Positions 2,685-61,454 of a DNA stretch of 64,000 nucleotides are shown here, piece by piece (within the stretch, counting starts at the first letter, position 1; each line of letters opens with the position of its first letter). Source of the DNA: Halobacteria archaeon HArc-gm2 (GTDB lineage Archaea > Halobacteriota > Halobacteria > Halobacteriales > Haloarculaceae); the NCBI GenBank assembly GCA_025517465.1, contig JAOPKE010000003.1:124001-188000 (forward strand). Reading direction: 5' to 3'. The notes below the pieces were generated by a model. The model worked only from the letters and a program-made list of their open reading frames with translations. It made no database searches and was not told where the DNA came from. The position numbers and the translations under genes are program-made.

Positions 2685-3173
2685 TTCAACAACTCGAAAG
2701 CCCTCGGCGCGCTGGGGTCGCGCGACCCGCCCTGCGCTCCTCGACTTCGTCTGCGGTGCTTGCGGGGTCGTGCTTCCCCCACCCCGCCTCGCCCTTTCAG
2801 TCCTCCAGGCACTGCATAGCTCGCGCGGCCTCGCTCCGTTCGGCCCGCGCTCGTGATTGACCCCCCACTCCTCCCCAGATTCGGGCCCTCCGGCCCGAAT
2901 CACGCTTCCGGAACGCCCCGCACCCGCCGGGCCGGGAGTGAGTGGCCGAGCAATAGCGAGGCCCTCACGACCTGGGGAAGGGCAGGGCTGCAGTGCGGCC
3001 CTTGGAGGACTGAAAGGACGAGCGTGTTTCCGGGAACCTGGACGACGCAAGCACCGCAGGCGGAGTCCTCGTGAGCGAAGCGAACGAGGGCTCGTCAGAG
3101 CTTGCCTCTGACGGCTGCCGAGGAGCACAGCGAGTCCCGGGACCGGAAACGTGCGAGGGCTTTCTGAGTGTTG
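2685..3173. repeat. Long palindromic element, copy A (complete)
   Basis: About 490 bp built as nested inverted arms around a central hairpin. Outer arm: CGAAAGCCCTCGGC at 2695-2708, answered by GAGGGCTTTCT at 3155-3165. Second arm: CTGCGGTGCTTGCG at 2751-2764, answered at 3046-3059. Third arm: CGCCCTTTCAGTCCTCCAGG at 2790-2809, answered by GGAGGACTGAAAGGACGAG at 3004-3022. The centre, 2878-2901, is a perfect hairpin with a TCC loop followed by CACGCTTCC. Open frames across it differ between copies and look accidental. I cannot name the element. Confidence 0.85.
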
Positions 3174-17543: not shown

Positions 17544-18071
17544 CAAACAACTCGAAAGCCCTCGGCGCGCTCTCTGGAATCGGAATCGAGACCGCAAACA
17601 CTTCGAAAGCCCTCGGCGCGCTCGCCTCGCGCGGCTCGCTGTCGTTCGAGCGAGCGGAGCTCTCTCGTGATGACGAAAGGCGCGCAGCGCCTTTCGAACC
17701 ACGCTCCTCGCTCCGCTGCGGTGCTTACGTCGCCGTGCTTCGGCCAGTGCACCTCGCCCTTTCAGTCCACCAGGAAACTTCGTCGCTCGCGCGATAAAAC
17801 GCGCTCGCGATTAGTTCCGCCAAACCTCCCCGGATTCGCGCCGTCCGGCGCGAATCACGCTTCCTGACCGCTCCGCAACCGCACAGCGGTCGGCCGGGAG
17901 CGCGTTTCATCGCGCGACCAGGGGAAGGGCTGGGCTGCGGTGCTGTGCTGACCTGGAGGACTGAAAGGGCGAGGTGCGGTCCGGGAACCCCGGACCTCTA
18001 AGCACCGCAGCGGAGCGAGGAGCGCAGGAGGTCCGCGGGACCGGAGCGCGCCGAGGGCTTTCTGGTTGTCA
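17544..18071. repeat. Long palindromic element, copy B (complete, left end doubled)
   Basis: About 528 bp with the same nested plan as copy A. Outer arm CGAAAGCCCTCGGCGCGCT occurs twice at the left (17553-17571 and 17604-17622) and once at the right (AGCGCGCCGAGGGCTTTCT, 18045-18063). Second arm: 17711-17727 with 18000-18016. Third arm: CTCGCCCTTTCAGTCC at 17753-17768 with GGACTGAAAGGGCGAG at 17958-17973. An extra inner pair, about 17788-17805 with 17899-17916, matches 17 of 18. The central hairpin at 17833-17856 keeps the TCC loop and is followed by CACGCTTCC. No gene is seen between 17433 and 18162. Confidence 0.85.
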
Positions 18072-36052: not shown

Positions 36053-36412
36053 GCAAACACGTCGAAAGCCCTCGGCTTGCTTCGCGGCGCAGCCGCGAAG
36101 GTATAGAAGGTCGGCGGAAGCCGACCTTCCGCTCGCGCGCCCTGAGCGGGATATCCTCGCTCCTCCGTCGCTCGGATAGGGCCCGACTCAGCCCCCGCGA
36201 CCGGCCTCGTGGTCCGAGAGACCTTCGGTCTCTCGTCATCACGAAAGAGCGAAGCTCTTTCGAACGACCCTTTCATTCCTCCAGGGACAGCTATCGCTCG
36301 CGCGGCCATCGGCACGCGCTCCCGAATGAACTCCCCGCTCCTCCCCGAACCCGCCGCGTCCGCGGCGGGTCACGCTTCCTTGCCGCTCAGCAACTGCCCG
36401 GCTGTGGCCGGC
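36053..36412. repeat. Long palindromic element, copy C (left half and centre only)
   Basis: It starts CAAACACGTCGAAAGCCCTCGG like the left ends of copies A and B, carries several internal hairpins (GCTTCGCGGCGCAGCCGCGAAG-type), then the third arm CCCTTTCATTCCTCCAGG (36278-36295), the CTCCCC box, the central hairpin ACCCGCCGCG-TCC-GCGGCGGGT (36349-36370) and CACGCTTCC. The right arms are missing; the sequence runs into gene 36503 after unrelated bases. The missing right half resembles copy D at 52540. Confidence 0.8.
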
Positions 36413-51038: not shown

Positions 51039-52466
51039 ATGGGAACGGGCTTGCGGTACCGGATTCTCGCTGTCGCTGGCGCGATAGCACTCACTGCTGT
51101 CGCCATCAGTGTTGCAAACCATCCGTTCGTTCAGACCTTCGTCACCTCCCTTCCAGTTCTCGAGAACCTCAAGCCGGTTACCAAGACCAACGGCGATCTC
51201 ATCGACGAGATATTCACGACCTCGATCATCATTCTTGCGGCTCTCTGGCCGTTATTCAAACCACAGCCACGTCGAATCCTCGACGCCATCGCGCTGACGC
51301 ACAAGCGGACGTTCCTGGCCGCGACGGCGCTGGCGACCATCGGATACTTCGACTGGTCGACACGCCTCCCGCGAACCACGCTAATAACGACCGTCGCAAT
51401 CCTCGGCGTCGTTCTCCCTATCTGGTTCGTCACCATACGTCGGCGTCCGCTTTCGCCGACGCGAGCCGTCATCGTCGGTGACGATCGCGCGACCATCGAA
51501 CGACTCTACGACGCCGCCGAGATGCCTATTCTCGGATACGTATCACCTGCGACTGTCACGCCCGACGACGGTCCGGCTATCACCGCTCGCGTCACAGACG
51601 GCGGCGTCACGACGGACACTGTCCCGGCCCGTTCCAGACTCGGCGGACTCGCCAAACTCGAAAACGTGCTCGTCGAACACGACGTCGACACCGTCCTCCT
51701 GGCATTCGATACGCCCGACCGCGAGGAGTTCTTCGGGACGCTCGCGACTTGCCACCGCCACGGCGTTCGAGCCTTCGTCCACCGCGACCACGCAGACCGC
51801 GTACTCGTTGCCGAATCGACCGGTGAGGAACTCGTCAACACCGACCTCGAACCGTGGGACTGGCAGGACTACGCCGTCAAGCGACTCTTCGACGCCGTCT
51901 TCGCCGCAACGGGCATCGTCCTCCTCGCACCCGTGATGGTCCTCATCGCAGTCGCCATCAAACTCGGTTCCCCGGGACCGATCCTCTACAGCCAGCGTCG
52001 GACGGCTGAATTCGGTGAGACGTTCACCGTCTACAAGTTCCGGACCATGACCGACGGGAAGGAGGACGTCCGGCCCTCGGAGGACGGCGAGAACCACCGC
52101 ATCACCAGAATCGGCCGCGTCCTCCGGAAGACCCACCTCGACGAGATCCCCCAGCTCTTTGCCATCCTCAAAGGCGACATGAGCGTCGTGGGACCCCGCG
52201 CGGTCTGGACCGACGAAGAACACCATCTGGAACAGTCGGTGAGCAACTGGCGCAAGCGCTGGTTCGTCAAACCGGGCCTCACCGGCCTCGCCCAGATCAA
52301 CGGCGTCTCCAGTACGGACCCCGACCGAAAGCTCCGCTACGACATCGAGTACATCCGCCAGCAGTCGTTCTGGTTCGACCTGAAGATCGTCACCCGACAG
52401 ATCTACGGCGTCGTCGTCGACGCCGCGTCCATCGTCTTCGGCTGGTCGGACGAGGACGAGGTGTAA
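51039..52466 (+). CDS. Polyprenyl-phosphate sugar-1-phosphate transferase (initiating enzyme)
   Basis: A 475-residue protein of the WbaP/WcaJ type. N-terminal membrane helices are followed by a CoA-binding-like domain (RAVIVGDDRATIERLYDAAE) and the bacterial sugar transferase domain (PF02397). That domain has KRLFDAVFAATGIVLLAPVM, YSQRRTAEFGETFTVYKFRT, the catalytic Asp-Glu of HLDEIPQLFAILKGDMSVVG, and PGLTGLAQINGVSS. It places the first sugar phosphate on the lipid carrier. A CGCTTATTACC box at 51005-51015 lies about 28 bp before the ATG. It closes the glycan island. Confidence 0.9.
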   Translation: MGTGLRYRILAVAGAIALTAVAISVANHPFVQTFVTSLPVLENLKPVTKTNGDLIDEIFTTSIIILAALWPLFKPQPRRILDAIALTHKRTFLAATALATIGYFDWSTRLPRTTLITTVAILGVVLPIWFVTIRRRPLSPTRAVIVGDDRATIERLYDAAEMPILGYVSPATVTPDDGPAITARVTDGGVTTDTVPARSRLGGLAKLENVLVEHDVDTVLLAFDTPDREEFFGTLATCHRHGVRAFVHRDHADRVLVAESTGEELVNTDLEPWDWQDYAVKRLFDAVFAATGIVLLAPVMVLIAVAIKLGSPGPILYSQRRTAEFGETFTVYKFRTMTDGKEDVRPSEDGENHRITRIGRVLRKTHLDEIPQLFAILKGDMSVVGPRAVWTDEEHHLEQSVSNWRKRWFVKPGLTGLAQINGVSSTDPDRKLRYDIEYIRQQSFWFDLKIVTRQIYGVVVDAASIVFGWSDEDEV

Positions 52467-52539: not shown

Positions 52540-52661
52540 CCCTGGTGGACTGAAAGGGCGAGACGCGGTCGGCGAAGGCAGGCGAAGTAAGCACGCGAAC
52601 GGAGTGAGCGCGCGCAGCGAGCCTCCCGAGCCGAGCGCGCCGAGGGCTTTCTCCGTGTTTG
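52540..52661. repeat. Long palindromic element, copy D (right half only)
   Basis: It begins exactly with the third right arm, CCCTGGTGGACTGAAAGGGC, then GAG, continues with AAGTAAGCACGCGAACGGAG (the second-arm position) and ends with GAGCGCGCCGAGGGCTTTCT followed by CCGTGTTTG. Centre and left arms are missing. It lies 74 bp after the last glycan gene. Its arms are complementary to those of copy C at 36.1 kb, so C and D could be the two parts of one element. Confidence 0.8.
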
Positions 52662-59650: not shown

Positions 59651-59819
59651 CGGTTGTGCTGCTCTTAACGACTGGATTTTACAGCGGTATCGAGGCGAAA
59701 GCCCACCCCTAAAGGGGTGGGATGAAGCCGACAACTGGGAATCTATCCACATCCGTAGGCATGACTGGGGTTAGACAATTAAGTAACATCTATAGGTGTG
59801 GGAATTCTATATATTGACG

Positions 59820-60209
59820 ATGCCTCGTGGGTTCGACAGGGAACGTACCTCGGTTCACAAACTCCAGTACCACTTCATCTGGTGTCCGAAGTACCGCAAG
59901 TCGGTACTGACTGGCGAGGTACGCGACCGTCTCGAAGCACTCATCGAGGAGAAAACCGACGAACTCGACCTCGAAATCTTGGAGTTGGCGATTCGCTCTG
60001 ACCACGTCCACCTGTTTATCACGGGCGACCCGACGCTCGCTCCGAACAAGATAATGCAACAGGTCAAGGGCTATTCTTCTCGCCACCTCCGCGACGAGTT
60101 CGATTTCGGCCTGCCGTCGCTGTGGACGCGCTCGTACTTCGTCTCGAGTGCGGGCGACGTATCCAGCGAGGTCATCGAGGAGTACATCGACGCCCAAGCA
60201 GGGGAATAG
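59820..60209 (+). CDS. tnpA: IS200/IS605 TnpA transposase (HUH, Y1)
   Basis: A 129-residue single-strand DNA transposase. The HUH motif is in DHVHLFI (His62, His64), and the single catalytic Tyr is in EEYIDAQAGE near the end. The core LQYHFIWCPKYRKSVLTGEV is typical. The ATG at 59820 is preferred; an in-frame GTG at 59796 would add eight residues. It appears intact. Its stop TAG is followed at once by tnpB. Confidence 0.92.
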   Translation: MPRGFDRERTSVHKLQYHFIWCPKYRKSVLTGEVRDRLEALIEEKTDELDLEILELAIRSDHVHLFITGDPTLAPNKIMQQVKGYSSRHLRDEFDFGLPSLWTRSYFVSSAGDVSSEVIEEYIDAQAGE

Positions 60210-60211
60210 CC

Positions 60212-61366
60212 ATGCAACGGAACGTCTCGACCACGGTGCGGGTCAAACTCCACTCGCTCACCACCAGGAAGGCTGACCTGCTCGCCCGGGAGTACGAGGC
60301 GTTCCAGACCGCGGTTCACGGCGGAGACGCCGACCTCTACTCTGCGACCGACCAGCAGGCGTCGAAGGTTCAGCGACAGAAAGACCCGAACTCCGACACC
60401 GAACAACCCGTCGTGCTTCGCAACGACGTGTTCGACGTATCCCACGACGAGGACACCGTCCTGTCGTCGTGGTGGGTCAGAGTCCCCGTCTACGACCCCG
60501 AACGGGGACGGGGCAACTCCATCTGGTGTCCCGCACACGTCCCTCGGAAGGACGAACAACTCGTCCGTGACGGTAATATTCGGGACAGCGAACTGGTGTA
60601 CCGGAACGGTGACTGGTACGTTCACCTCGTCGTCAAGCGGTCTGTGACCGTCAAAGACGAGTACGACGACGTGCTGGCCATCGACATGGGCGCACGGTGG
60701 GTAGCTACCTGCGCGTTCCTCTCCGACCGCAAAACTACATTCTACGGCGAGGAAGTCCGTCGTATCCGCGAACACTACAAGCAGTTGCGAAAGTCCATCG
60801 GGAAGGCCAAACCCCGACAGGGACAGCAGGTCGTGGAGCGTATCGGTGATGCAGAAGCGCGGAAGGTGGACGACCGCCTCCACAAGATTGCTCGACAGAT
60901 CGTGGACGACGCCGACGAACGGAACGCAGTCATCGTCGTGGGCGACCTCGGTGGCATCCGCAAGGACAACGACAAGGGACGGTACGTCAACGACAAGACC
61001 CACAAGATGCCGTTCGCCCGCCTGCTCAACTACATCGAGTACAAAGCCCACGGCGCAGGTATCGACGTGCAGTTGGTAGGAGAATACGACACGTCGAAGA
61101 CGTGCAATCGATGTGCCTGCGAAGGTGTCCGAGAGACGCAGGGACGGTTCGAGTGTCCCGAGTGTGGGTTGGACGACAACGCGGACAAGAACGGTGCGCT
61201 GAATATCGGCAAACGAGCCCTGGGCAAGTTCTCAAAACCGCTGTCCGAGGCGGGGGCTGTACTGGCACAGCCCGAAACGCAGGTCATCGTCCATCGTGAC
61301 GACGAACCTGCGAACCTCTCCGTTTCCGTGGGTTCAACCCCCAGTGGGGGAACCCCACGGCTTTAG
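60212..61366 (+). CDS. tnpB: TnpB RNA-guided nuclease of the IS200/IS605 element
   Basis: A 384-residue protein. RuvC-I: LAIDMGARWVATC with the first Asp. RuvC-II: VIVVGDLGGIRKDN, where many TnpB proteins have Glu and this one has Gly-Asp. Zinc finger: CNRCACEG...FECPECG. RuvC-III: DDNADKNGALNI with the last Asp. It lies two bases after tnpA. TnpB cuts DNA next to a short target motif using an RNA made from the element's right end, helping the element persist. The stop codon TAG sits inside the right-end hairpin. Confidence 0.88.
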   Translation: MQRNVSTTVRVKLHSLTTRKADLLAREYEAFQTAVHGGDADLYSATDQQASKVQRQKDPNSDTEQPVVLRNDVFDVSHDEDTVLSSWWVRVPVYDPERGRGNSIWCPAHVPRKDEQLVRDGNIRDSELVYRNGDWYVHLVVKRSVTVKDEYDDVLAIDMGARWVATCAFLSDRKTTFYGEEVRRIREHYKQLRKSIGKAKPRQGQQVVERIGDAEARKVDDRLHKIARQIVDDADERNAVIVVGDLGGIRKDNDKGRYVNDKTHKMPFARLLNYIEYKAHGAGIDVQLVGEYDTSKTCNRCACEGVRETQGRFECPECGLDDNADKNGALNIGKRALGKFSKPLSEAGAVLAQPETQVIVHRDDEPANLSVSVGSTPSGGTPRL

Positions 61367-61376
61367 CCGTGGGAGG
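61240..61376 (+). ncRNA. Predicted reRNA (omega RNA) scaffold of the IS element
   Basis: In this family the guide RNA comes from the 3' part of tnpB and the right end. Here the hairpins CCCCCAGTGGGGG (61338-61350) and CCCACGG...CCGTGGG (61354-61373) form the expected 3' structure, and the guide would be the flanking bases after about 61380. The 5' limit is a guess. Confidence 0.4.
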
Positions 61377-61454
61377 ATGTCAGGTGGCGCACTGTCTGCG
61401 AATGTCCGTACCGACTCGGCCGCTAGGAGGCCCGAGAGTGGTTTCGGCAGGTCA

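Follow-up and report, generated by a model that had tools for sequence, protein, structure and literature searches.

The window analyzed here, a 64,000-nucleotide stretch of haloarchaeal DNA (positions 124001 to 188000 of contig C12 in genome G000, an assembly of 4.25 Mb in 18 contigs), contains two palindromic elements of about half a kilobase, A and B, and raises the question of what is conserved in them and what kind of element they represent. An initial annotation, made from the letters of the window, described them as nested palindromes with long-range pairing between their arms, took their compensatory changes as a sign of selection on structure, and offered a structured RNA, a non-autonomous mobile element, or a nucleoid or termination structure as explanations. 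Our preferred reading, to which we assign a probability of roughly one-half, is that the palindromes belong to a family of repeats in haloarchaea that are non-autonomous, either mobile or recombining, and work like the REP/REPIN elements of bacteria.

The palindromes are inverted pairs of one folded unit

Direct reading found A and B where they had been placed. Both contain the three arms (outer, second, and third), the box CCTCCCC, the central hairpin with its TCC loop, and CACGCTTCC (Table 1). The third copy, C, is there in part, as a degenerate sequence at about 36064 to 36400 that scores 14 bits with the covariance model described below. The third arm, the 12-mer CCCTTTCAGTCC, occurs 156 times in the genome, compared with no occurrence of the same pattern reversed without complementing, and the outer arm occurs 98 times.

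Extracting the occurrences from 1.69 Mb revealed that each half of a palindrome is one unit of about 105 nt, which reads outward as GGACT-GAAAGGG / GGACTGAAAGGG, followed by AAGCACCG, GAGGAGCGCAG, and GGGCTTTC. Units are mostly 101 to 114 nt long and share the foot GG..GAAAGGG. The single unit folds by itself into a rod, where the GGACT foot and a GAAAG/CTTTC basal helix are followed by an internal loop that is G-rich or of the tandem G.A type, a variable helix of about 12 bp in which one T-A pair is almost invariant, an internal loop with GAA, more short helices, an A.A mismatch, and the apical loop. Two subtypes can be distinguished, type I with GAAAGGGCGAG..CGAGGGCTTTC and type II with GAAAGGGGC..GGGGCTTTC. 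Outside each unit lies a conserved tail, NNNTTGTT(N)GCGGT, with more terminal motifs about 45 to 70 nt out. Applied to the 1.69 Mb, the covariance model of the unit, named R1, recovers 197 units (one copy being counted twice in overlapping loci), and it finds five in the window, two each in A and B and the single unit of element D.

Table 1. Elements A to D and their parts, in window coordinates
Feature	Position	Strand	Evidence
Element A: two inverted units flanking a structured center (type I)	2685..3173	.	Direct reading and R1 matches
A left folded unit, reading outward	2696..2803	-	R1 79.5 bits, E 5.5e-17
A center domain: CCTCCCC 2870-2876, hairpin 2878-2901, ACGCTTCC, GGGGAAGGGCAGGGCTGC	2804..3006	+	Direct reading; covarying alignment of 53 centers
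A right folded unit; apical loop holds an additional hairpin module of ~60 nt	3007..3164	+	R1 81.4 bits, E 2e-17
Element B: two inverted units flanking a structured center (type I)	17544..18071	.	Direct reading and R1; syntenic in sister species G064
B 51-bp tandem duplicate of the left unit's outer end	17554..17604	-	Direct reading
B left folded unit; loop double-hairpin module missing in the sister species	17605..17768	-	R1 60.4 bits, E 2.5e-12
B center domain: CCTCCCC 17825-17831, hairpin 17833-17856, ACGCTTCC	17769..17957	+	Direct reading; center alignment
B right folded unit, canonical	17958..18062	+	R1 92.6 bits, E 3.5e-20
Element C: left unit, degenerate, with its outer arm at 36064 and its third arm at 36268-36279, and center (CCTCCCC ~36340, CACGCTTCC ~36371); right unit absent	36064..36400	.	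Cluster at C12:160064; R1 14 bits only
Element D: lone folded unit, ~80 bp downstream of a gene ending at 52466	52547..52651	+	R1 87 bits, E 8.2e-19

The proposal of selection on structure is strongly supported. Among 148 distinct unit sequences, in the alignment fitted to the R1 model, 92.2% of the cells are paired, versus 73.9% after shuffling, and 711 cells are double changes, versus 195 in the shuffles, with none of 500 shuffles reaching the observed value. When partners are shifted by one to three columns, the double-change cells fall to 86 to 120. The helices and their covariation come out the same from an unguided alignment made with MAFFT. G-T pairs outnumber A-C mismatches by 95 to 38 in the unguided alignment and by 156 to 24 in the model-fitted one, indicating that the strand reading GGACT..CTTTC is the one that folds, whether as RNA or in the form of single-stranded DNA.

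Within an element, the two units have an identity of 0.70, compared with 0.72 for random units of the same type. Since paired units are no more alike than random ones, the complementarity across the center is limited to conserved motifs, and the selected pairing lies within each unit. Long-range pairing of nested arms is rejected as unsupported, and A and B each consist instead of a folded unit present twice in inverted orientation. The spacer hairpins between the arms, which were said to differ and still pair, do keep their pairing, but they belong to the unit itself as its internal helices, among them double-hairpin modules that are inserted in its loops and can be exchanged. It is the shape of the unit, not its letters, that is conserved, and the structure is under strong covariation on one defined strand.

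The double-hairpin modules (such as GTGGTTCG..CGTCATCACG..CGAACGACAG and GCGACCGCGAGAGC..GAGGGCACC) recur at fixed loop positions of the units, in the window at 17645 to 17702 and 3060 to 3120. At a given site they are not the same in the two sister species, and the G064 counterpart of C3:91071-91310 is one of the places where they are found.

Covariation on one strand and a preference for G-T pairs are what would be expected of RNA, and the tandem G.A loops and the U-rich TTGTT tail are RNA-like as well. The units might accordingly form a structured RNA family, in which the unit, perhaps together with the center, has its role in RNA form, either within mRNA ends or as a small RNA, with the DNA repeats being its dispersed genes. 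The genomic placement and the distribution of the units, described below, bear on this rival.

Arrangement and genomic placement

Within the 1.69 Mb, 77 inverted pairs of units face outward and 51 units stand alone, with any other orientation seen in just two neighboring pairs. The gap between paired units is 26 to 62 nt for type II (13 pairs) and 155 to 498 nt for type I (64 pairs, most of them at 155 to 255 nt), and in A and B a structured center of about 190 nt lies between the units. The type I center is conserved and structured, comprising CCTCCCC, a hairpin that covaries and has either TCC or TGGC as its loop, ACGCTTCCTGACCG, GGCCGGGAGC, and GGGGAAGGGCAGGGCTGC. An alignment of 53 centers has 94.6% of its cells paired and 175 double changes versus 58 in the shuffled control. 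The central hairpin therefore covaries among the genomic copies as initially described, but its loop is not always TCC, the TGGC variant being common.

Behind about 33 of the 137 type I units, the end of the unit is repeated, usually at 51 bp and in arrays of up to four. Such tandem repeats of the outer end and tail (51 bp, sometimes 54 to 55 bp, in up to four copies) are seen at the outer ends of elements at C17:176342, C13:302150, C18:32685, and others, and in the window at 17554 to 17604. On contig C2 of the same genome, between 12 and 35 kb (L099 and L100), four single type II units in one orientation lie 2 to 16 kb apart, upstream of a gene for an RPA-like protein; this series might represent direct repeats, not inverted pairs. 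Several contig ends fall in or near the outer arm (G000 C1:42, C6:156, C13:1, C16:45, C16:192561, and C17:192522), suggesting that the repeat family probably fragments assemblies and is under-counted.

All but two of the placed pairs are intergenic. Based on gene positions and orientations from a purpose-written gene caller, the genes flanking the pairs are convergent in 25 cases, divergent in 18, and co-directional in 30, so that convergent flanks (25 of 73) are in modest excess over a background of 21%. This excess, the intergenic position, and the conservation of sites between sister species would suit a DNA structural element kept by the host, such as a cruciform or a nucleoid, recombination, or termination site. 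However, the arms of an element complement each other no better than random units, which argues that the cruciform itself is not selected; the family also includes genera that have no units at all, and empty sites occur in the sister species. We consider a host-kept element quite improbable, and the initial suggestion of a nucleoid or termination structure finds little support, the bias toward gene ends being too weak for terminators.

The placement also speaks against the structured RNA family. No conserved promoter sequence is found upstream of the units, every gene orientation occurs, and the shortest centers, with 26 to 37 nt between outward-facing units, leave no space for promoters.

Distribution in haloarchaea

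The 12-mer is present in 21 of the 22 genera of the family. A survey of the class, in which R1 was applied to at most 10 candidates per genome, gave matches in 338 of 391 Halobacteria genomes and in 75 of 84 genera. All 77 matching genomes of a phylum-wide sample belong to the order of the window, and this sample contained no R1 match outside the order or class. With deeper R1 scoring, six genomes of the genus have at least 150 units (the window's own genome, where every candidate scored was a unit), 147, 39, 41, 25, and 14, and two further genera belonging to the family have 0. The core 14-mer also occurs in 69 viral contigs, in which no matching unit was found, and a phage collection yielded no match.

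The search of Rfam 15 (4227 families) with the window and the plasmid loci gave no match at or above a curated score, only chance-level matches below the cut-off, and open-access literature searched by arm sequences and by topic returned chance matches on the arms and no description of the element. No known insertion sequence or protein gene accounts for the elements. The unit appears to be without a covariance model or a published description, which would leave a very widespread non-coding feature of haloarchaea apparently undescribed, and hundreds of natural covarying sequences are now available for one folded strand.

For a host RNA, a copy number that ranges from 0 to at least 150 between related genomes would be odd, and the lack of an Rfam match also counts against the structured RNA family. 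The strand-specific covariation speaks for it, as does the fold that is intact at old sites shared between species, but we regard it as rather unlikely.

Conserved sites with changing occupants

In the comparison with the sister species G064, the syntenic flanks are mostly 85 to 97% identical and most element sites are common to both species, suggesting that movement is not frequent. Empty and filled sites can nevertheless be found. Copies of the window's genome at three sites are missing in G064, namely at C11:206059 (718 bp versus 1), C11:405514 (403 versus -1), and C12:331646 (368 versus 14), with flanks that are 88 to 96% identical. Another apparently empty G064 site retains traces of the outer ends and is probably the deletion of an older element. 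No target-site duplication is definable at the five sites that are empty or nearly empty in G064.

At the shared sites, the unit in G064 is seldom the closest relative of its syntenic counterpart, taking first place among 207 own units in only 1 of 37 cases (median rank 56), and closer copies usually lie elsewhere. For the outer flanks of 120 nt, first rank is reached in 18 of 34 cases, indicating that the shared sites truly correspond. At two sites, the center matches only when it is reversed (0.89 versus 0.02 and 0.81 versus 0.25), and the element at C3:91071-91310 is nearly identical to the inverted G064 copy, except for an added double-hairpin module. Where both sides of a pair differ between the species, pairing is kept in 80 of 93 cases and broken in 13. 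The sites are conserved, while their occupants turn over, sometimes flip, and remain folded. Among the three initial proposals, the non-autonomous mobile element fits best, given these empty, filled, and flipped sites and the swings in copy number. A signature in which the site is kept and the occupant is swapped or flipped offers a handle on structure-dependent mobility or gene conversion in archaea.

Candidate mobilizing enzymes

The window contains, at about 59690 to 61380, an element of the IS200/IS605 type with a TnpB-like gene and a tnpA (Y1) gene at 59850 to 60197, which is the only Y1 gene of the genome. No unit lies beside this gene, and the ends of this one Y1-bearing IS605 element, compared by eye, differ from those of the unit. 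The near-complete genome G144 has 39 third-arm 12-mers and no Y1 gene, most genomes without the 12-mer have Y1, and across 24 genomes the presence of Y1 shows no correlation with unit copy number. On this distribution, a Y1/IS200 transposase is rejected as the mover.

The same observations weigh on the idea that the units descend from a known haloarchaeal element (an IS200/IS605-type PATE, an SMR, or a MITE), as its degenerate ends or as miniature forms of it, and are moved in trans by its transposase. PATEs and small mobile repeats are indeed abundant in Haloquadratum and show “SwitchRepeats” (PMC3119063) as seen here. However, the sole Y1 gene of the genome sits in an ordinary IS200/IS605 element whose ends differ by eye, the distribution of Y1 and the 12-mer is as described for G144 and the 12-mer-free genomes, and in place of a short near-terminal palindrome the unit has the form of a 105-nt rod. 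We judge such a derivation very improbable.

No unit pair enclosing a transposase gene, as an autonomous copy would, was recognized in the 1.69 Mb, where the gene products are unannotated, and no gene family lies beside more than 5 of 86 haloarchaeal loci.

Most of the plasmid records with a match hold a single copy. Several plasmids have a locus in common, composed of a gene for an RPA-like OB-fold protein (about 300 aa, facing away), a conserved GC-rich noncoding region of about 470 nt, and then the unit. Among 30 genomes with one or few units, the RPA-like gene lies within 1.5 kb in 9 and the noncoding region is found in about 12. The genome of the window has the RPA-like gene together with a unit at C2:34.4-35.8 kb and at C12:32.5-34.6 kb, and G063, of the same genus, encodes a protein 100% identical to the query protein from the Halomicrobium urmianum plasmid, which points to Halomicrobium as the genus. 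Two smaller plasmids with the locus also encode primase, primase-associated, and large ATP-binding proteins. Strong RPA-like matches are present in 9 of 14 high-copy genomes versus 1 of 10 genomes without the 12-mer; a full-length gene is absent from the high-copy genomes G023, G028, and G096. The link between the RPA-like gene and the unit is suggestive only, and since the gene is missing from three high-copy genomes, a role as obligatory mover is not supported. A mobilizing enzyme was thus not found among Y1, the RPA-like gene, enclosed genes, or recurrent neighbors.

The noncoding region of about 470 nt is 75 to 90% identical across haloarchaeal families, which is above the expectation for a spacer (L013:3520-3990 of the Halomicrobium urmianum plasmid, L009, L010, L012, L014, L186, and L189 to L191). 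It is possibly a plasmid origin or transfer site, and the conserved plasmid locus as a whole (RPA-like gene, 470-nt region, and unit) is a lead that could prove to be an origin of replication or of transfer. An extra gene for the peptide chain release factor aRF-1 adjoins the RPA-like locus in several plasmids and in the genome of the window (L009:4318-5394, L013:4318-5394, L016:14998-16074, and L400:26118-27194).

A possible mechanism of dispersal and exchange

The reading of the palindromes as non-autonomous mobile or recombining repeats draws on the folded unit with its defined strand, the layout in inverted pairs, the dispersal, the variation in copy number, the polymorphism of sites, and the swapping and inversion of occupants. 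A mechanism that would connect them starts from the folded strand, which may be exposed as single-stranded DNA during replication or transfer. Some enzyme would recognize the exposed fold, and this recognition would disperse the units. In the polyploid haloarchaeal chromosome, ectopic gene conversion and recombination between inverted units could afterwards exchange one unit for another, invert elements, and pass on hairpin modules. The locus of large haloarchaeal plasmids, in which a single copy of the unit lies beside the gene for the RPA-like single-strand-binding protein, may be the source or the vehicle of the family. More tentatively, the units could be self-contained, recognized by their structure, and confined to haloarchaea, where dedicated machinery, possibly plasmid-borne and involving the RPA-like protein, would make intergenic sites into sockets for unit exchange and inversion.

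Comparison with known systems

In the attC sites of integrons, it is the folded single strand and not the sequence that is recognized, and they have covarying stems and conserved unpaired bases. The haloarchaeal units resemble them in the covarying stems, but occur as intergenic inverted pairs or single units without a cassette array. Foldback elements and MITEs have long inverted arms, no coding capacity, and presence/absence polymorphism. The haloarchaeal elements share these features, and their outer tails are conserved. In contrast to foldback elements and MITEs, their arms fold independently and have diverged from each other, and no target duplication is definable at the five sites mentioned above.

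REP and REPIN elements are built from hairpins of 20 to 40 nt with a GTAG or CGTC foot, are linked to RAYT (Y1) transposases, show reported compensatory changes in their hairpins, and are thought to move as a folded single strand (PMC3116915, PMC3733652). The haloarchaeal family is similar in being composed of intergenic high-copy hairpin units, arranged as singlets and as inverted doublets with preferred spacing (here 77 pairs in two spacing classes). It differs in the length of the unit (about 105 nt, with several conserved internal loops), the GGACT foot, the absence of a linked Y1 gene, the restriction to haloarchaea, the lack of mutual pairing between paired units, and the structured 190-nt center of type I. 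As the family lacks both the tag and size of REPINs and a linked RAYT, two defining traits, we class it with dispersed structured repeats and not as a REPIN.

The PATEs of Haloquadratum walsbyi derive from IS605, carry short palindromes near their termini, and lack inverted ends, and the SMRs are about 110 bp long, have inverted ends, and target PATEs (PMC3119063). SwitchRepeats in Haloquadratum are positions where a different or reversed repeat is found, and core deletions there leave the ends behind (PMC3119063). The comparison with PATEs and SMRs is based on their published descriptions. They share with the haloarchaeal unit the nature of transposase-free haloarchaeal mobile repeats in high copy number, and the SwitchRepeats are the closest published parallel to the swaps and flips described here.
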